A DNA stretch of 38,701 nt from a virus. Both the position numbers and the translations under genes were made by a program. The notes under the pieces were generated by a model, which did no database searches, was not told the origin of the DNA, and was given only the letters and a program-made list of their open reading frames with translations. The stretch spans positions 1 through 38,701 of the IMG/VR virus record IMGVR_UViG_3300010430_000208. One strand, written 5' to 3'. This document shows positions 2,686 through 14,821 of the stretch, one piece after another. Numbering within the stretch: position 1 is the first letter of the stretch; each line of letters begins with the position of its first letter.

Positions 2686-3749
2686 GGCGTCACCTGCCCA
2701 GACCCCTGCATCGGGACAACGGGCAGGTTGGACCGGATGTCTATGAGCTCGGCGATGATGCCCGCGCTGCTCCCGCCGGTGGAACCAAAGAGCCCGCCCT
2801 GCTCGTCACGGATCGCCCGGAGTGCGTCGATCATGGATTCCTGAAATGCACGGGCCTGGGCGTCGAGGGCTCGGCCTCGCTCGTCAGTAACCCTCTGGAT
2901 GGCATCGAGTTCGCGTTGTAGTGTTTCCTCTACCCGCCTCTTCTCTCGCTTCAGCTCGTCCTCGGTGAACTGGAGCCCAAGTTCTTGACGCCGCTTCGCC
3001 AACCTCTCCAGTTCCTCTAGGGCCTTCTCCGCGTTCTCTTTGGCTATCTCCCGCTCGGTCATCCCGGCGCGTCTGGCCGCGTTCTCCCGCGCTTCGAGTA
3101 GCGCCCGAAGGGCCACAAAGTCGGCGTCCCCCTGCCTTTTCCTGTCGGCGTTGTTGAGCCTGTCCCTCTGCCTTCGGAGTTCCCCGTCAAGCTGCGAGAG
3201 CTTGTCAAACTCGTCTTCCAACTCTCTGAGCCGTTCAGATGCACTCTTGCCGATTCCGGTTTCGCCAATGGTCAGAATCGGGTTATTCTGGTTCTCCCGA
3301 AGGAACTCAATCCTCTTCTGTAGGGCCTGCAACGCCGCCTCGGTTGCCCTGATGTTCTCCTCGATATTGACCACCGACTTGTCAAGACCGTCCGCCAGTT
3401 TGTCGGTGTCGCTTCTTGCGTCTTTGAGGCTCTTTGCAAGCGCCACCACACCGGCGGTAGCCAGTGCAACAAGACCTACGATCGCCGTGAATGCACCAAC
3501 GAGGGCGGTGGCAGCGCCGACCGCTCCACTGATCGCGCCAGAGAACTTCCGGGCCCCAGCCGTGGACCCGTCGATCTTGCTGCCAACATCCTCGAACGCC
3601 CCGCCCGCCTTCTTGCCCGCGGCCTCGGCGTCGGTCCCGAACTGGTTGACATCGGATCGCGCCTCGTCCAGCCCCCGCTTGAGCTGTGAGGTGTCCGCGG
3701 TAACGTCTACCCGCGCCTCGCCGACCTTTGATCCGCGGCCCTTTGGCAT
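2682..3749 (-). CDS. Tape measure protein (short)
   Basis: The amino end (ARVDVTADTSQLKRGLDEAR, residues 12-31) is the usual tape measure start. A hydrophobic Gly/Ala-rich segment follows at about residues 71-107, then a long Arg/Glu-rich coiled coil to about residue 320. This is the pattern of a siphovirus tape measure, which sets tail length and helps DNA entry. At 355 residues it is much shorter than most (usually 600-2000), which would predict a tail of only about 50 nm on the common rule of roughly 0.15 nm per residue. It sits directly after the tail tube gene; I do not see the frameshifted chaperone pair that often lies between. Confidence 0.85.
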   Translation of the reverse strand: MPKGRGSKVGEARVDVTADTSQLKRGLDEARSDVNQFGTDAEAAGKKAGGAFEDVGSKIDGSTAGARKFSGAISGAVGAATALVGAFTAIVGLVALATAGVVALAKSLKDARSDTDKLADGLDKSVVNIEENIRATEAALQALQKRIEFLRENQNNPILTIGETGIGKSASERLRELEDEFDKLSQLDGELRRQRDRLNNADRKRQGDADFVALRALLEARENAARRAGMTEREIAKENAEKALEELERLAKRRQELGLQFTEDELKREKRRVEETLQRELDAIQRVTDERGRALDAQARAFQESMIDALRAIRDEQGGLFGSTGGSSAGIIAELIDIRSNLPVVPMQGSGQVTP

Positions 3750-3759
3750 CAGATACCCC

Positions 3760-4563
3760 CTACGCCAGCGTCAGCGCGCCCGTGCCCTGCAGCTGGCCCG
3801 AGACCGCGATCGGCTGGCCCAGGTTGCAGGTGATCGACAACTGACTCAGGAAGCAGCTACCCGTGTGTGTCTTTGACCCGCCGACCGTGAACACCACCGT
3901 TCCCGCGTCGGCCCTGGCGACCGCCCCGGCGGGGAGCACGTTCGAGGACCCCACCACCGTCAGGTCGCCCGAGCCCGCAAAGTTGTACGGGATTCGGTTC
4001 GTGTCGCTCGATTCCACGTTGACACTCAGCGCCGACTGGTTGGCGATGATGTTGCCGGTGAACTCGTTGTCCGTCGCCCCCTCCTCGGTCAGCTTGAGCG
4101 TCGCCGCCGCCGCCGCGATCGCCGAGGGCAGAACCACGTCGGTGGTATCGGACACGCCCGCGTCGAAGGTCCCGCCCCAGGTGAGCAGACCAGCCGCGAA
4201 CGTGTTCCACGCCGGGGCAGAGGCCGCCATCTCCGTCGTGTTGACCACCGCATACCCCATATTGAGGCTCCATCCCTTGAGGTGGAGCGGGGTGATCGTT
4301 GAGTGGGTGACGTTCCCCTCGTACCCCGTCTGCGGCGCCGCCTTCGGGAACCGGCCCTGGAAAGACACGGACCAGGACGGGATACCCACGAACTGAGAGG
4401 CCGAGACCGGGGGGGTTGCCGCGAAGGCCGTGCCCCCGAACGCCGGCGCGTCGGTGGTCAGCGTGAACTGATACCCACCGACCCCGCCCGTATCGAACAG
4501 GTGTTCCAGTTGCGTCCCGGAACTGACCGAGATGTCGCCGTCAATGCCAAGTGAGACTGCCAT
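3760..4563 (-). CDS. Major tail (tube) protein
   Basis: A 267-residue beta-rich protein with the order expected for siphovirus tail tubes: after the tail terminator and before the tape measure. It opens with MAVSLGIDGDISVSSGTQ and has a strand-rich body, a two-Cys late segment (GSCFLSQLSITCNLG) and a final strand typical of tube subunits. Many copies would polymerise around the tape measure. Family membership is inferred from position, size and composition rather than from a single motif. Confidence 0.75.
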   Translation of the reverse strand: MAVSLGIDGDISVSSGTQLEHLFDTGGVGGYQFTLTTDAPAFGGTAFAATPPVSASQFVGIPSWSVSFQGRFPKAAPQTGYEGNVTHSTITPLHLKGWSLNMGYAVVNTTEMAASAPAWNTFAAGLLTWGGTFDAGVSDTTDVVLPSAIAAAAATLKLTEEGATDNEFTGNIIANQSALSVNVESSDTNRIPYNFAGSGDLTVVGSSNVLPAGAVARADAGTVVFTVGGSKTHTGSCFLSQLSITCNLGQPIAVSGQLQGTGALTLA

Positions 4564-4567
4564 CGGG

Positions 4568-5005
4568 TCAGCCCTCCGTTACCAGTACCTCGTACGTCTC
4601 GACGTAGGACCACACGTCCAGGTCGTGGGCCGTTCGCCCCCTGAGCCTCCGAACCGTCGAGGCCGTGTTGGCGCCCGCCAGCGTCGGCGTCCACCGATGC
4701 AGGAGCGCGAATATCTGGTCAAGCACCGCCCTCGCCGGCGCGTTCCCGTTCTCGTGGGCGTCGTAGACAACTACCTCATACGTCGCCGTGGCAATGTTCT
4801 CGGTGAAGGTGTCGTCCTGCTCATACTCCGCGTACTCAAAGACCACCCACGGGAGGACCCCATCGCCCCGCTTGGTATTGGGGTCGCCCGCCCCCCCGTA
4901 GATGGCCGGGTTCCCACCCACGTCCTGGACCAGCGCGATCAGCGTCACGTCCGTCGAGAGTCGGGTGTAGAGCGCCGCGTCCAGATCGGCGAGGTTCAGG
5001 CTCAT
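4568..5005 (-). CDS. Tail terminator protein (DUF3168-like)
   Basis: At 145 residues, with an amino-terminal helix (LADLDAALYTRLSTD), a central PWVVFEYAEYEQDDTF strand and a YEVVVYDAHENG strand followed by a helix LDQIFALLHRW. This is the layout of DUF3168/gpU-like terminators that cap the tube and join it to the head. It lies between the gp10-like protein and the tail tube, overlapping the upstream gene by four bases (ATGA). Confidence 0.75.
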   Translation of the reverse strand: MSLNLADLDAALYTRLSTDVTLIALVQDVGGNPAIYGGAGDPNTKRGDGVLPWVVFEYAEYEQDDTFTENIATATYEVVVYDAHENGNAPARAVLDQIFALLHRWTPTLAGANTASTVRRLRGRTAHDLDVWSYVETYEVLVTEG

Positions 5006-7732: not shown

Positions 7733-9229
7733 TTAGCTGGTCAGGCTCATGCCGACCACGGGGTCCGCTGTGGTGCTGACGCCATCGCCGTGAATGTTGA
7801 TCGCCACCCGCTCCTTGCCGCGGATTGCGATCAGGTCCTGCTCGAAGTACCGCTGGTCGCTCGTGGCCACCTCGTTGGAGCCCCGAACCTCGCCGAACTT
7901 CGCGCCCGCGGAGTGATCGCCGACCGTGCAGAACACGATGTCCTGGCCCGGATCGGTCGAGTGCTGAGACTGAACAAACTCCACCGGGTAGCCGAGGAAC
8001 TGGCGACCGCTCGAGTTGCCCAGGTCGCTCTGGGTGTTGCCGCCCGCGGCCCGCATAAGCCGGTCCATGACCTCGAAGAAGAAACGAGAGTGGCAGCCCC
8101 ACTTGATGTTTCCGCCGACATGAACGTATCCGGGGAGCAACGCCAGAAGGTTGGAGAACTCGGCCAGGGTGATGGAAGCGAAGTCGCCGCCCGCACTCTG
8201 GTACTCGCCGGGGCCAGTGCCCGAGCCGTCCGCGATCTGGTTGTTGAAGCCCTCGATGCCGCCGTAGGTGCTCGTGCCGTCGCCGAGGAAGGCCGCGAGG
8301 TCCTCCTTGTTGCCGACGCCGCGAGCCCAGGACCGGCCCCAGAAGTCCGCCACGCTGATCGCGGAGTCGTTCAGGAGCTCGGCGCTGATCTGGGTCAGGC
8401 CCATCAGCTTCTTGGCGACCAGTTCCACCGTGTCAGACTCTGGCTTGTTCTGAGCCGTCTCAGTCCCGGCCTCGGTCTGCCACGTCGGGGCCACGTCGCC
8501 CAGAGCGCGGGGGACCGTCATGCTGTCCCGGCTCATCGGCGTAACACCGATCAGCCTGCGGGCCGCCCCGTACTCCTCCTTGAGTTCGATCAGGTCCGCC
8601 GAGTAGTCGTCCGGGACCAGCCCACCCCCGAGGAGGTTGTTGTTGGTCACGAGCGTCTTGACGATCGTTCGGTCGTTCTCGAGTTCGGGGTAGTCGGCCA
8701 CCTGGCCGTTGCCCGTCACATGGAGCCGCATCTTGGCGCCGAAGAACTCAGCCGCCTCGGACGAGCTGAACGCAGGCTTCATCTTGCCCATTCCAGGGAC
8801 GTAGACGAGACCCCCGCTCTTGACGGCCTGGTCGTACTTTGCGCAGGCACGCCCGCGCTTGGTCCGCACAGCCGGAGACTCGACGCCGGCGTACGCCTTG
8901 CCGACTTCGGTACCCATCTGGCGGGTTCGGAGGTTGGTCCTCGAGGCTGAACGCCCCTGGATCTGCTCCTCAGCCGCGGCGCGCTCCTGCTCGGCCATCT
9001 CCTCTTCGGAGGGCTCGGCGCCCACGACCTCGAGGCTGTTCAGGCTCTCGCCCTCGTCAAGCGTCAGGACGGCCTTGGTTCCCCAGGCTTCGTCCACGTC
9101 CACGGACTTCCCATCGGGAGCCGTGATCTTCTCGATCCCGTTCTCAGTCATCCACGCCTTGATCTCGGCGAGGTTGCCGCCCTCGAACCCGTTTGCACGG
9201 GCGAGCGCCAGCAGTTGCTTTCGGTTCAT
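7733..9229 (-). CDS. Major capsid protein, HK97 fold
   Basis: At 498 residues, with the start MNRKQLLALA chosen at 9229 because it follows AGGAGG by seven bases. The amino-terminal quarter (to about residue 130) is charged and helical, as the HK97 delta/scaffolding domain removed by the prohead protease. The rest has HK97-type features: LVPDDYSADLIELKEEYGAA leading into the E-loop region, PTWQTEAGTETAQNKPESD, then helix-rich P- and A-domain sequence (LNDSAISVADFWGRSWARG) and the final YFEQDLIAIRGKERVAINIH strands. It has its own promoter (9350-9378) after a terminator, consistent with the highest-demand product. Confidence 0.93.
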   Translation of the reverse strand: MNRKQLLALARANGFEGGNLAEIKAWMTENGIEKITAPDGKSVDVDEAWGTKAVLTLDEGESLNSLEVVGAEPSEEEMAEQERAAAEEQIQGRSASRTNLRTRQMGTEVGKAYAGVESPAVRTKRGRACAKYDQAVKSGGLVYVPGMGKMKPAFSSSEAAEFFGAKMRLHVTGNGQVADYPELENDRTIVKTLVTNNNLLGGGLVPDDYSADLIELKEEYGAARRLIGVTPMSRDSMTVPRALGDVAPTWQTEAGTETAQNKPESDTVELVAKKLMGLTQISAELLNDSAISVADFWGRSWARGVGNKEDLAAFLGDGTSTYGGIEGFNNQIADGSGTGPGEYQSAGGDFASITLAEFSNLLALLPGYVHVGGNIKWGCHSRFFFEVMDRLMRAAGGNTQSDLGNSSGRQFLGYPVEFVQSQHSTDPGQDIVFCTVGDHSAGAKFGEVRGSNEVATSDQRYFEQDLIAIRGKERVAINIHGDGVSTTADPVVGMSLTS

Positions 9230-9248
9230 GGCTGAACCTCCTGTTTGT

Positions 9249-9262
9249 GTGAGATAACTCAC
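9249..9262. promoter_or_regulatory. Small palindrome in the capsid mRNA leader
   Basis: GTGAG-ATAA-CTCAC, a perfect 5-bp stem with a four-base loop, lies in the predicted capsid leader about 20 bases before the start codon, just upstream of the AGGAGG site. It could be an mRNA stability hairpin or an operator. No protein is assigned. Confidence 0.4.
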
Positions 9263-9710: not shown

Positions 9711-10457
9711 CTAGGTACAAACCTTCGTGATCGCCCCCAGGCCCGCGTGAATGTACGTCTTGCGGGCTATCGGACTCTCAGCCGCCGGGAACAGGGACCG
9801 ATCGGGCAGGCCCAGCGCCCTCGCCGACGCCTTCTGGATCTTGCCCTTCGTAACCAGCGCCTCGAGGCTTGCGGCCCGGGTGTCGTCCAGGACTTCCACC
9901 CGGCTCTGGCAGGACACGTTGCAGGGCATCGCCGTGAACGAGAGCTCGATCCAGTCCCACGCCCGCACGATCGAGGCCGGCGCCCCACGCTTGCCCTCGT
10001 ACCGCTTGGCCTCGTCCTCGGTCGGGGGTCCCACGTCCGTAGCCGCGAACCCGATGGACACCCCGATACCCACCTCACGCGCCACGGACAGGATGTCGTC
10101 GGGCACCGGGCTCGAAATCTTCAGCATCCCGATACGGGCCAGCCAGCCCTTCTGCTCCGCGAACGAGGGGTAGGCGCTCAGGCCGTTCCTCCGCAAAGAC
10201 CCGACGTGCGAGCCCATCGTGTAGTCGTGGTCCACGAACACCTTGCGATTGGACTCGAAGTACGACCGATCGGCCCCCGAGGGGATCACCACCTCGTTGT
10301 CCAGGTCGATGTCGTCGGTGTTGGCGACCACGGTGATGTCCCGGTTGCCGCCCTCGGTGTCCACCGTGGTGTCCTTGCCGAACGACGCCCACACCCCGAT
10401 CTGGGCGTCCCCGCCCAGTTCCGGGTGCTTGCTTCTAATCTTGTCTACGAGCTTCAT
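9711..10457 (-). CDS. Prohead protease (HK97 gp4/S78-like)
   Basis: At 248 residues. The catalytic His motif VDHDYTMGSHVGS (His77) and the Ser motif VGIGVSIGF (Ser134) have the spacing of phage prohead proteases, which cut the capsid amino domain and internal proteins during maturation. A later WDWIELSFTAMPCN segment is also family-typical. The start follows a GGAGGT site and overlaps the portal stop by four bases. Its position between portal and capsid is canonical. Confidence 0.9.
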   Translation of the reverse strand: MKLVDKIRSKHPELGGDAQIGVWASFGKDTTVDTEGGNRDITVVANTDDIDLDNEVVIPSGADRSYFESNRKVFVDHDYTMGSHVGSLRRNGLSAYPSFAEQKGWLARIGMLKISSPVPDDILSVAREVGIGVSIGFAATDVGPPTEDEAKRYEGKRGAPASIVRAWDWIELSFTAMPCNVSCQSRVEVLDDTRAASLEALVTKGKIQKASARALGLPDRSLFPAAESPIARKTYIHAGLGAITKVCT

Positions 10458-13400
10458 TCGTCACCTCCGAAGTCCCCGAGCAGGTTGCACCGGCAGTTCG
10501 ATGCTACAATGCCGTCCGCAACTATCAGCCCGGACTCGGTTGAAAGGTCATACACATGCCCGGAATAGTGACGGATGCTCTTGTGGACCAGTGGGTCCAG
10601 GGTCACCACGCGGGACAATCGGTCAAGAAGATGGCCGAGGAATGCGGGATCTCCCGCGTCACGATCGGCAAGTACCTGAGGCTGGCCGGCGTCACCCCCC
10701 GCAACCGCAGCAAGGCGATGTATGCCCGCATGGCCCAGACGACGCCCGACGAACGGGCCCGACTGACCGAGAAGGCCCACGCCGCCGTCCGCGGCAAGCC
10801 GCAGAGCGATCAGCATAGATGCCTGATTGCCCTCGGACGCGAGCGAGTCGGCAAGCCCGACAGCCCCGAGGAGGCCCAACTGCTCGCCCATCTCCGCGAG
10901 CGGGGCGTTGATCCTGTCCCCCAGAAGGCAATCTATCGCTACAACGTCGATCTGGCCCTCTGTGAAGACCGCATCGCCGTGGAGATCTTCGGGGGCAACT
11001 GGCACCGTGGCGGCAGACACGCCCAGAGACACCGAAAGCGAATCGAACACCTCCGCGATCGTGGTTGGTGCGTGGTCATCGTCTGGTGCAACTCCCGCGC
11101 CGCCGGGCCAATGACCGAGGGAGCCGCAGACCAGATCCTCGCCATCGTTGATCTGACCCGCCGGGACAAAGCCGCCCGCCGTCAGGATTGGATGCTCAGG
11201 GGTAACGGTCAGCCTGCGACCGGACGCGGTTTCAAGATCCACGACGGGGCCTGAGTACGCCGCCCGCATCCCCGCAAACGTCCCGATTCTCCCGACCCTG
11301 GTATCAGGCACAAAGCAGTTTGGGTGGGCCGGGGGAGCCAGCACGGGCCCCCGCGGCGTGAAAGTCGATCCGTCCGCGCCGACGATCGGCACCCCCGCGG
11401 GCCAGAACGGGACCTGTGTGGACACCACCCCGGACTTCTGGCCCGTCCCGTCGTTCTCGTCCACGATCCGCTTGCAGATCGGGCACCCCCCAGGGGCCAG
11501 TTGCCAGATCTTCCCCGTGATCCCGATGTCCTCGAACCCCGCCAGCTTGCCGCCCTGTACCGCCGTCTGGACCTCGGTACGGGCGATCGTCTCGGCGCGG
11601 GCCTCGGTGAAGTCGTCCAGCCGCTTGGCGATGTCGTCTATGGACTCGCCCTCCTCGAGGCCCGTGGCCAGGGACGCCCGGGTCCGCTCCAGGGTCGTCT
11701 CCACGATGTCGCCGGCAAGCCTGAGCGAGTAGGCGTCCAGGAACGCCAGGGCCCGCTCGGGCACGATGTCAAACGCCCCGCCGGCCTCCTCGGCTGCGAG
11801 CTCCAGCCCCACCTCGGCGAACCCCTTGAGGGTCTCGCGGAGCAGCCTGGCGATCTGGTCCACGTCGTCCTTGCCCACCGGCTCGCCCGCGACCGCTCGG
11901 CCCTGGATGTCCGTCAGGTTGTCCCGAATCGTGCCAACGAGTTCCTTTTCTAGCTTCTGGATCTTGTCCGAGCGGAACGGGCCATCGGCGGCCTTCTCGC
12001 CCTCGTGGTCGCAACAGGGGGAACCCCAAGGGTCGTCCGTTTGCGCATCCTTACGCTCCGTTACGCCTATTTCGCTTCCCTTACGCTCGCTCACTACCCC
12101 GCCCACCTCCACCACCCCCTTGCCGTCCGGTTCGGGCGCCGCCAGGAACCCGCTGATCGGGATGGACCCGAACCCGCTGCCCATCGCCGGGGCGGGCTCG
12201 GGCGCACGGTCCAGCGTCTCGAGGCTCTGCCCGCTGATCCGCAGGGCGTCCCCGCCGTCCACCGGCTCAAGCCCCATCTCCATCCGCTCCTCGTTGATCG
12301 AGGTCAGACCAGCCGACACCCGCTGCGCCGCCAGGGTGGTACGCCGCTCCTCGTTCTGGGGCACCGGATCGTCGTACATGAACCGATAGATGGACGGGTC
12401 CAGCCCGAACATCGGCAGGAGCATCTCACTCTGCTGGTCCGCGTCCCGGTTCACCCGGGGCCTGACCGTCAGGTCCAGGTACTGGACGCCGTACCCCTGC
12501 TCGCTCGAGGCCAGGTTGGCGTCGTTCAGGGCCTCCATCGACTCGGGGATGCCGAAGGCCGTGCGGAGCACCTGGCGTAGCTCCTGCCTCTTCTCGAGGT
12601 CCTGGAGCTCCCTCGCCGAGAACTGGGGCGCCGTCACCGTGGACCCGTTGCGGAGGATCAGGGGCTCCGTGGACCCCCGCAGGCCGCCGAGCAGCTTGCG
12701 GAGGGTCAGCCGGATCTCCTCGATCTGGGTCGGGCTCGTCTTCTCGTCCACCGTCACGACGTAATCGGGCCTCATGCCCCGGCTCACGAACTCCTGGTCA
12801 TGGGTCAGGTTCGCCGCGATCAGATCCGCCTCGGCCACCACGAACGCCAGGGGCCCTATCCCGTTGTACGGGTTCACCGGGCTCGGCGAGTGCTGGAGGT
12901 GGATGATGTCCTCACGCTCGAACTTCCGCACGTCCTCGGACCCGCGCCCGAACCAGTACCCCCCGATCAGGGATTGCTCGTCGGGCTGGACCGTCACATG
13001 CTGGGGGTACAGGGGCCACTCGGCCACCGGGCCAGAGGCGTCCCGCTCGATGCCGCTGAACGACTGACCCGCCACCTCACGGAACCAGAACTTCTGGTAG
13101 ACGAGCGAGGAGCCCCCCGGCCAGTTGATGTTCGGGCAGTCGAGGAAGTCCAGCACCGGGTGATCCGTGATCTCCACCACGTCCCCGCCCCGAGACGCGA
13201 AGTCCGCGGCCTTGACCCCCGCGCGCCCGGCCTCCCACGCCTTCCGCCTGTGCTTGGGCACCGCGTTCGGGTCCGAGGCGACGGCCCGGTAGAGCCGCAT
13301 CCGTTGGCTCGAGCAGGCTGTCGCGTTCATGGCCGCGTAGACGGCCACCATCCCGGTGGCGCGGGCCACGAGCTCCATCGAACTCGAGACCGAGGACCGC

Positions 13401-13519: not shown

Positions 13520-14821
13520 CTATCCGAAGGTCGGATCGTCCTCGATTGATACCCGGCCACGCCACTCCTCGAACGACACCGCCACGGGCTCGTGGACCGG
13601 GGCCCCACCGTAGACCGTCGTGCCTAGGTCGTGATCGACGTGCTTGATGACGTACCGGAGGCCGTCCAACGCGTGGTCGTGGGCCTTCTTCACCGTGTCC
13701 TTGGGCCGATCGGGGACCCATTCGTAGGTCTCGAACTCCCGGATCAGGTCCGCGCACTCGGGGTCTACGGTCAGCCTGGGCCTCCCATCGTCCTTGACCT
13801 CGAGCCGCTGGCGTACCCGCCCGATCCCGTCCAGGACCGAGTTGTCCCCCCCGATCGCGTGGATTCCCTCGTCCCGGAGGGCCTGGATGAACTCCGCGGC
13901 GCTCGGGTCGCAGATCACCGCCTCGTGCCCGTCGGCCAGGGACTTGACCGCCTCGATCTTCTCGGAGCGCTGGAGCCCGGACTGGTACACCATCGCCGAG
14001 ACGTGGGCCCGCCCGTCCCCGTCGAGCTCCACCCTCAGAACCGAGAACGGGTTGGTGAACCCGTCGTCCACCCCCAGGATGACCCTGGAGGGCGTCAGGG
14101 CCCTCGTCTTGACGTGGGTGTCTCTGAGCCAGTTGTCGTACACCACGCCGTCTGAGCCCACCCAGCGGCCCATGACGTACCGCTCGAAGTAGACGCCCGT
14201 GAGGTCCATCAGCGAGTCGATGTAGTCCTGGGGCAAACAGGGGTTGTCGGTCGTCTTGGTGTGGATCACCTCGTGGTTGTCCCAGGGGGTGTCCGTGCCC
14301 GGGGCGAGGCCGAACCGCTCCGCGAACCAGTGCGAGGGCGGGCCGGGGTTGCAGGCTGAGTAGAGCTGGCGGATCAGGCCGGGAACCGTCATCCGGACGC
14401 GCCCGTCCAGCATCCGGTAATCGTCCTCCGAGCACTCCACCACCTCGTCAATCCCCACGCCCGAGAGGTTCATGGAGGCGATCTTGCCAGGATCGTCCAG
14501 GCCGAAGTACATGATGGTCCCGCCCCCGTGGATTCGGATCTCGGCCTCGCCCTTGTTGTGGGTGTAGCTCCCCATCGGGAGGACCGGGGGCAGCTCGCCC
14601 TCGGGCTCGAGGAGGGTCTTGAGGGTGGACTTCTTGAGGCTGTTAAAGGTCTTCCGGCACAGCCCCTCACGGGAGCCGGGGACCGTCGCCCTGGAGAGCA
14701 GCTTCAGGCATAGCCCCCGGCTCTTGCCCGTGGCGAACGCGCCCGAATAGCCGACGTGCCGGGCCTCCGAGGCCAGGAACCGCATCTGCTTGGGCAGGGC
14801 TCGTTGGACCAGTTCAACCAT
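13520..14821 (-). CDS. terL: Terminase large subunit
   Basis: At 433 residues, with a variant Walker A GAFATGKS (27-34), Walker B GVGIDE (121-126) and the SACNPG coupling segment (155-160), followed by a nuclease domain with LGVDDGFTNPF, AVICDPSAAEF and DHALDGLRY acidic motifs. It packages DNA into the prohead by ATP hydrolysis and makes the cut. It starts eight bases inside the end of the small-subunit gene, and the portal gene follows nine bases after its stop, the canonical order. Confidence 0.95.
   Translation of the reverse strand: MVELVQRALPKQMRFLASEARHVGYSGAFATGKSRGLCLKLLSRATVPGSREGLCRKTFNSLKKSTLKTLLEPEGELPPVLPMGSYTHNKGEAEIRIHGGGTIMYFGLDDPGKIASMNLSGVGIDEVVECSEDDYRMLDGRVRMTVPGLIRQLYSACNPGPPSHWFAERFGLAPGTDTPWDNHEVIHTKTTDNPCLPQDYIDSLMDLTGVYFERYVMGRWVGSDGVVYDNWLRDTHVKTRALTPSRVILGVDDGFTNPFSVLRVELDGDGRAHVSAMVYQSGLQRSEKIEAVKSLADGHEAVICDPSAAEFIQALRDEGIHAIGGDNSVLDGIGRVRQRLEVKDDGRPRLTVDPECADLIREFETYEWVPDRPKDTVKKAHDHALDGLRYVIKHVDHDLGTTVYGGAPVHEPVAVSFEEWRGRVSIEDDPTFG

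Follow-up and report, generated by a model that had tools for sequence, protein, structure and literature searches.

The window analysed in this work comprises positions 1 to 38,701 of the IMG/VR virus record IMGVR_UViG_3300010430_000208. On its minus strand lies a portal-MuF fusion gene whose MuF domain is split by an intein, and on the plus strand, within the DNA of that intein, lies a second gene encoding a putative homing endonuclease (Table 1). The window proteins were assigned to families with Pfam, NCBIfam and PHROGs. Besides PF14890, which was matched by the intein alone, the model of the intein N-terminal region TIGR01445 was also matched. The AlphaFold2 (AF2) model of the intein presents a confident Hint core at both ends (predicted local distance difference test, pLDDT, ~86-98), and its best Foldseek matches were intein structures, with probabilities of 0.98-1.00 at the top. 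In an alignment of 50 inteins the residues that define class 1 (C1, T39, H42 and N274) are invariant, and a Cys at position +1 follows the Asn at every C-terminal junction located among the homologues. Together with the Pfam matches, the location of Cys732, Asn1005 and Cys1006 bears out an earlier note, made from the sequence alone, which had read Hint blocks A, B, F and G in the minus-strand frame, interrupting the HPN-CRC motif of MuF. By its sequence, the element is a class-1-type, probably mobile intein that interrupts the portal-MuF gene, a head morphogenesis gene of the phage, and it is predicted to splice.

The plus-strand protein matched, in addition to the family given in Table 1, DUF559 (1.6e-4) and helix-turn-helix (HTH) families. 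In Foldseek, I-Bth0305I (3r3p, E 1.3e-3) and Vsr came first with a probability of 1.00, and a profile match to 3r3p was also obtained (8e-4). The catalytic-core residues Y129, D132, E143, G146, G147, W149 and R162 are invariant in the nuclease family; as regards the EDxHD set, D132 and E143 are invariant and H150 is nearly so, and the residue-by-residue match to 3r3p is weak. Based on sequence and model, the protein is an HTH plus Vsr/I-Bth0305I-like endonuclease whose activity is predicted, in line with the HTH and Vsr-like core that the earlier note had recognized. Its third codon positions, called strongly G/C in that note, do reach a GC content (GC3) of 0.78, but the description is only a relative one, as the extein shows 0.92. 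The codons of nuclease and intein coincide exactly (10556 and the low coordinates of the minus-strand codons leave the same remainder modulo 3): the nuclease ATG is the complement of the block-F residue His985 and its TGA that of Ser753, in agreement with the positions already read from the sequence, and the gene overlaps ~85% of the intein. The locus thus departs from the canonical endonuclease-containing intein, in which the nuclease is on the same strand and in the same frame; here it is on the opposite strand with coincident codons.

Table 1. Features of the interrupted portal-MuF locus in the window and, in the last line, of a Gordonia phage intein in its own record
Feature	Coordinates	Strand	Evidence or remark
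Precursor open reading frame, portal-MuF fusion protein split by the intein, 1018 aa	10454..13510	-	PF04860 2.3e-29; PHROG 2662 portal 3.8e-60; PF04233 6e-4
Intein, residues 732-1005, 274 aa, at HPN/CRC of the MuF domain	10496..11317	-	PF14890 1.4e-4; AF2; Foldseek; same-site homologues
Intein block A, Cys1 (Cys732)	11315..11317	-	Invariant in 50-intein alignment
Intein block B, TPEHP	11189..11203	-	T39 and H42 of intein invariant in 50-intein alignment
Intein block F, HVYDL	10544..10558	-	Complement is nuclease start codon and Shine-Dalgarno region
Intein block G, Asn274 (Asn1005), then C-extein +1 Cys	10493..10498	-	Asn1005 at 10496-10498; Cys1006 at 10493-10495
Antisense homing-endonuclease gene (predicted), 232 aa	10556..11254	+	PF18741 MTES_1575 1.4e-8; AF2 pLDDT 91.2; Foldseek 3r3p/Vsr
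Nuclease N-terminal HTH region	10574..10684	+	HTH family matches; helices in model
Nuclease Vsr/EDxHD-like catalytic core, YN.D ... VEIFGGNWH ... R	10865..11095	+	Profile, fold, conservation
Shine-Dalgarno-like GAAAGG, 8 nt 5' of ATG	10542..10547	+	Weaker than GGAGGT of many homologues
Nordenberg (L212) intein with in-register antisense LAGLIDADG-like protein	2995-3675	-	Also Barsten (L215)

We consider, with a probability of about 0.9, that the portal-MuF gene carries a mobile intein and that the homing endonuclease of this intein is encoded separately, by a gene on the other strand whose codons are in exact register with those of the intein. In this register the intein frame stays open because the nuclease avoids TTA, CTA and TCA, a means of compatibility that had been proposed from the window and that proved to be absolute: in 74 intein-embedded nuclease genes these codons never occur, against 444 expected from the codon usage of local genes (2,685 codons, 1,397 for Leu and 1,288 for Ser). 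When the count was restricted to 54 representatives of less than 50% identity, none of 2,013 Leu/Ser codons was a forbidden one, including 522 codons from 13 AT-rich loci. The in-register antisense frame has no stop in any of 59 IMG/VR loci (59/59); in the remaining two antisense frames there are 2-28. Since only one frame is open in all of them and the 74 genes hold no forbidden codon, the open antisense frame cannot be attributed to chance. It could still be thought that GC-rich codon bias alone keeps this frame open and that there is no second gene, as the phage is GC-rich and long antisense reading frames are common in the window. However, forbidden codons are absent over a range of locus GC from 0.36 to 0.71, the AT-rich representatives included, and the nuclease has a confident fold, invariant core residues and dNN/dSN ratios of 0.10-0.28 (see below). 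We give this explanation practically no credit, and the AT-rich homologues, the selection tests and the free-standing controls rule it out.

Selection was evaluated by counting substitutions according to their effect in both frames, with the antisense of the flanking MuF extein as a single-gene control. The dNN/dSN of the nuclease was 0.19 in Guernseyvirinae, 0.20 in Gordonia phages and 0.28 in a metagenomic trio; a value near 1, which the earlier note had named as an argument against a real gene, was not found. In the same three groups the dNN/dNS of the intein frame was 0.40, 0.31 and 0.37, versus 0.90, 1.09 and 0.73 in the control. At the ends, over blocks F and B, the intein ratio was 0.18, 0.11 and 0.36, and in the middle 0.60, 0.40 and 0.37. 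That is, two of the three groups have the strongest intein constraint at the ends that overlap Hint, and in the third the ends and the middle are equal. For the nuclease, two of the three groups show a lower ratio in the middle compared with the ends. Dual coding is therefore clearest at the ends, as the constraint shifts between frames along the gene; the middle serves mostly the nuclease and an open frame, and the intein signal there is weaker. Overall, purifying selection acts on both frames, as expected of an overlapping pair of protein-coding genes.

Several points should be counted against the proposed reading. The codon-position tests comprise few groups and simple counting, and the shuffles and P values, except for the recount with 54 representatives, ignore relatedness. 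A search of the window gave no convincing promoter for the nuclease, and the one sigma-70-like match overlaps its start codon. In two loci, L017 (intein 3911-4732) and L045 (intein 3893-4714), the nuclease has one internal stop while the intein is open. A broken antisense frame beside a conserved intein had been named beforehand as an outcome that would speak against the arrangement; it does occur, in just two of ~75 loci, as single nonsense codons in frames that are otherwise intact, as expected of homing endonuclease decay after fixation. Finally, the middle of the intein was modelled by AF2 with low confidence. This feature, together with the penultimate residue of the window intein, which is Ser and not His, would also suit the explanation that the Hint domain has lost splicing, or retains cleavage only, and that its frame stays open just so that MuF can be read through, with the nuclease as the functional gene. 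We regard that as quite improbable: C1, the block-B Thr and His and Asn274 do not vary in the 50 inteins, the +1 Cys is present at the located junctions, the ends overlapping Hint show strong constraint in the intein frame, and failure to splice an insert out of a head gene would probably carry a cost. Moreover, Ser-Asn-Cys recurs across the family, so it does not indicate a local decay.

The arrangement of the window is also found in many other phages. When viral contigs were searched with the nuclease, 59 IMG/VR loci, 29-100% identical, were obtained, and a profile re-scan returned the same 59 contigs with none added; with further searches ~75 homologous loci were inspected closely. The complete inteins among them have the MuF HxxC...NC junctions and no stops, and all intein-embedded copies of the nuclease that were found are antisense and in register 0. 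The earlier suggestion that this may be a distinct intein-endonuclease architecture is upheld by these loci, and the possibility that the window is an isolated oddity was discarded with them and with the survey described next. A generic Hint-domain query, independent of the nuclease, gave 80 inteins, 62 of them with this nuclease in antisense, in all cases in register 0, whereas the classical inteins of the same set have 3-23 antisense stops. The ratio 62/80 is not an estimate of prevalence, given that the query favours a block B of the TPNHP type and that its hits may coincide in part with the earlier samples. In addition, matches were obtained in 121 phage records, mostly unannotated. The nuclease lies unannotated and antisense to the MuF or minor capsid gene in records of Gordonia, Vibrio, Salmonella, Pseudomonas, Pantoea, Escherichia, Klebsiella, Haemophilus (Aaphi23) and Edwardsiella phages, as well as in Idiomarinaceae and Helicobacter-prophage records. 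The nuclease-intein family is large and old, and it is already in GenBank under the name "minor capsid protein". The profile search of genome contigs found one relative only (L122), and for this reason the family looks phage-centred.

Some members deserve a separate mention. In six loci (L021, L028, L038 and L052 among them) the 3' end of the nuclease passes the N-terminal junction of the intein and overlaps MuF extein codons. In L010 (~915, minus strand) the N-terminal end of the intein reads HPG-VAFGPVS, lacking the expected Cys1, perhaps by deletion or by an assembly error. Two classical inteins, L236 and L217, contain sense reading frames that weakly match the nuclease profile (E 4e-8 and 1.7e-6) and possibly encode Vsr-like endonucleases in the sense direction.

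Another aspect of this architecture is that the start signal of the nuclease is contained in block F of the intein. In most homologues the start is the complement of the block-F His (offset 0 in 59/73), and a Shine-Dalgarno sequence of the GGAGGT type is often the complement of the (D/N)-L-Q codons that follow this His. In 52 of 58 inteins the block-F His is encoded by CAT, which gives ATG on the opposite strand, as compared with 169 of 370 extein His codons (p = 7e-11), and the predicted Shine-Dalgarno pairing has a mean of -6.6 kcal/mol versus -2.8 for synonymous recodings. With Tyr, Pro, Phe or another residue in place of this His, the nuclease start has moved by a few codons; the shifted starts of L011/L016/L020 and of L033/L036 have AGGAG or GGAGGTG directly upstream. 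In Klebsiella phage RCIP0054 (L196, 147-1888, plus strand) and in Edwardsiella phage MSW-3 (L199, 1-1857, plus strand), a cluster of small plus-strand genes stops just 5' of the nuclease, and such clusters could supply its transcript.

The evidence for mobility comes from the insertion sites. In the Vividuovirus phages of Gordonia, MuF exteins that are 92-99% identical in DNA around the HEVIN/CRC site harbor three inteins without overall DNA similarity to one another. With the joined, uninterrupted site as query, matches covering at least 80% of it were obtained in 68 Gordonia and 13 Salmonella records; that is, the conserved site of the host protein also exists without the insertion. At least three positions within MuF are occupied by inteins of the nuclease-bearing family. 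Members in Mycobacterium phage Sejanus (L213) and Escherichia phage fEg-Eco06 (L214) occupy two other MuF positions, and from these the nuclease seems to have switched its target within the MuF gene.

Furthermore, two free-standing relatives of the nuclease were found. One of them (L127, 2306-3226, plus strand) is convergent and directly 3' of an intein-free portal-MuF gene ending DHSLCRC...; the other, in Acinetobacter phage IME285 (L198, 455-1348, plus strand), is an annotated gene that overlaps by a few bases the end of an intein-free MuF gene (PMCKCRA). Misassembly was considered for the free-standing copies and rejected, given that in IME285 the gene is annotated, the genome is that of an isolate phage and the intein-free MuF is intact. 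Their antisense frames contain 3 and 12 stops, respectively, and the three codons forbidden elsewhere are used 3 and 12 times. In these cases, therefore, the antisense frame is open only where an intein needs it to be. The arrangement in both is likely an ancestral or an escaped state, and their position suggests the capture, by an intein, of a nuclease gene that was convergent with MuF and lay close to its own target.

These free-standing copies next to intein-free MuF genes could also be taken to mean that the nuclease is real and has a main role other than the homing of this intein, either as a free-standing-type nuclease or as an antisense regulator of MuF, since an antisense transcript could influence the expression of head genes. 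We think this unlikely. Apart from the adjacent free-standing copies, the relatives examined all sit within MuF inteins; the occupation of several MuF sites, the same-site inteins in near-identical exteins and the many empty sites fit homing; and the free-standing copies are positioned as expected of an enzyme that cuts in MuF.

The same layout was found with a different enzyme. Gordonia phages Nordenberg, Lennon, Thing3 and Barsten carry an intein of another kind at the same MuF site; Sitar and SchottB are also listed with a Nordenberg-type intein. The in-register antisense frame of this intein encodes a protein with the LAGLIDADG-like AAYVAAFIDGEGTV motif, a short match to I-MsoI (5e-4) and a match to PHROG 5046, "HNH endonuclease" (3e-15), while in Pfam it is below the cut-off (LAGLIDADG_3, E 0.26); the label LAGLIDADG-like is thus less secure than the label Vsr-like. 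Between Nordenberg and Barsten the dNN/dSN of this frame is 0.10 (0.05-0.18). No relatives appeared in the search of viral contigs and the close ones in the search of phage records were in Gordonia phages only, so that this second family rests on few phages. As this enzyme lies in the same register, the antisense layout probably arose at least twice. Taking these results together, we believe it fairly likely that we are dealing with a widespread class of phage inteins with an in-register opposite-strand endonuclease and with block F doubling as its ribosome-binding site (RBS) and start. On this view the class has two or more origins, which involved unrelated nucleases (one Vsr/EDxHD-like, the other, in Gordonia phages, LAGLIDADG-like), and it probably came about when an intein took up a free-standing nuclease gene that was convergent with MuF.

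A mobile intein with an opposite-strand homing endonuclease would work as follows. After translation of the minus-strand precursor, the Hint ends (blocks A/B and F/G) would splice out and restore HPN-CRC in MuF, as the conserved motifs and the fold suggest. The plus strand would be translated separately, from the Shine-Dalgarno sequence and the start codon complementary to block F; the sequence and fold of the nuclease and the selection on it are direct results, and its expression is what we infer. The most likely target of the nuclease is the MuF allele without an intein in a co-infecting phage, which it would cut at the insertion site or close to it, and repair after cutting would copy the whole element. 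Cutting and homing are suggested by the occupied and empty alleles, the unrelated inteins in near-identical flanks and the free-standing relatives beside intein-free MuF. The central stretch of the intein would mainly be kept open, and its ends would obey both proteins.

In the window, the portal-MuF gene is flanked on the minus strand by the gene of the major head protein (7733-9262) and by that of the large terminase (13520-14821), with a 248-aa unassigned gene (9711-10457) between the major head protein and portal-MuF genes; the flanking genes together form a tailed-phage head module.

The arrangement means that an intein and a homing endonuclease can be joined as a second, independently translated gene of the opposite strand instead of a fused domain, in a register that forbids three codons. 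Among natural examples of antisense dual coding on a large scale it is one of the cleaner, with ~200-300 codons, dozens of deep lineages, two frames that can both be tested and free-standing controls, so that the sharing of DNA between two proteins can be measured. The arrangement also means that endonuclease genes of well-studied phages (Jersey-like Salmonella phages, Gordonia phages) went unannotated, probably as a consequence of gene finders rejecting full antisense overlaps, and that inteins assumed to be free of endonuclease may carry one. Our literature search found no published description of an intein with an antisense in-register nuclease, and Gosselin et al. (2025) and Gorbalenya (1998) may anticipate part of it. 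The titles of the first, a preprint on actinobacteriophage inteins with a "non-canonical architecture" (10.1101/2025.01.02.630785), and of the second, "Non-canonical inteins", suggest related arrangements, and so does the citation of both beside "overlapping reading frames" in PMC11855218. A survey of mycobacteriophage inteins (PMC5050341) makes no mention of antisense, opposite, MuF or Vsr.

As for known systems, the intein of the capsid morphogenesis gene in Escherichia phage Snoke and Salmonella phage LSPA1 (PMC6776784; L195) belongs to the same family, at the same site of the same gene. The passages found in that announcement describe a large self-splicing intein only, and K1ind2 as a phage without it; the antisense nuclease is unannotated in the record. 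Inteins of the same family were noted in the UPWr Salmonella phages and probably in vKMB36, with no mention of an antisense endonuclease in the passages found (PMC8425127, PMC11162368). The canonical endonuclease inteins, such as TliVMA and PhoVMA (PMC8966425), are alike in having a Hint domain in a conserved host gene together with a homing endonuclease, and their fold is matched; however, they carry the endonuclease as an in-frame domain of the same strand between blocks B and F, whereas in the window it is a separate opposite-strand gene that overlaps both blocks. I-Bth0305I and Vsr (3r3p, 1cw0; PMC3943268) have the catalytic fold and the profile in common with the window nuclease, but I-Bth0305I is intron-encoded and the core of the window nuclease is fused to HTH units and encoded antisense to an intein. 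In nuclear group I introns with antisense homing endonuclease genes (PMC9548176) the endonuclease is likewise opposite the splicing element; there the overlapped partner is non-coding intron RNA, whereas at the window intein the two strands each code for a protein. Of the ideas in print, the ShiLan domain of a phage methylase (PMC11855218) comes nearest: it is an out-of-frame HNH, also a hidden endonuclease frame over an insertion that is open in the host frame. In ShiLan, the endonuclease is in a shifted frame of the methylase, with no splicing domain found and no RBS; the window, in contrast, combines a full intein with an in-register gene on the opposite strand that has its own RBS.
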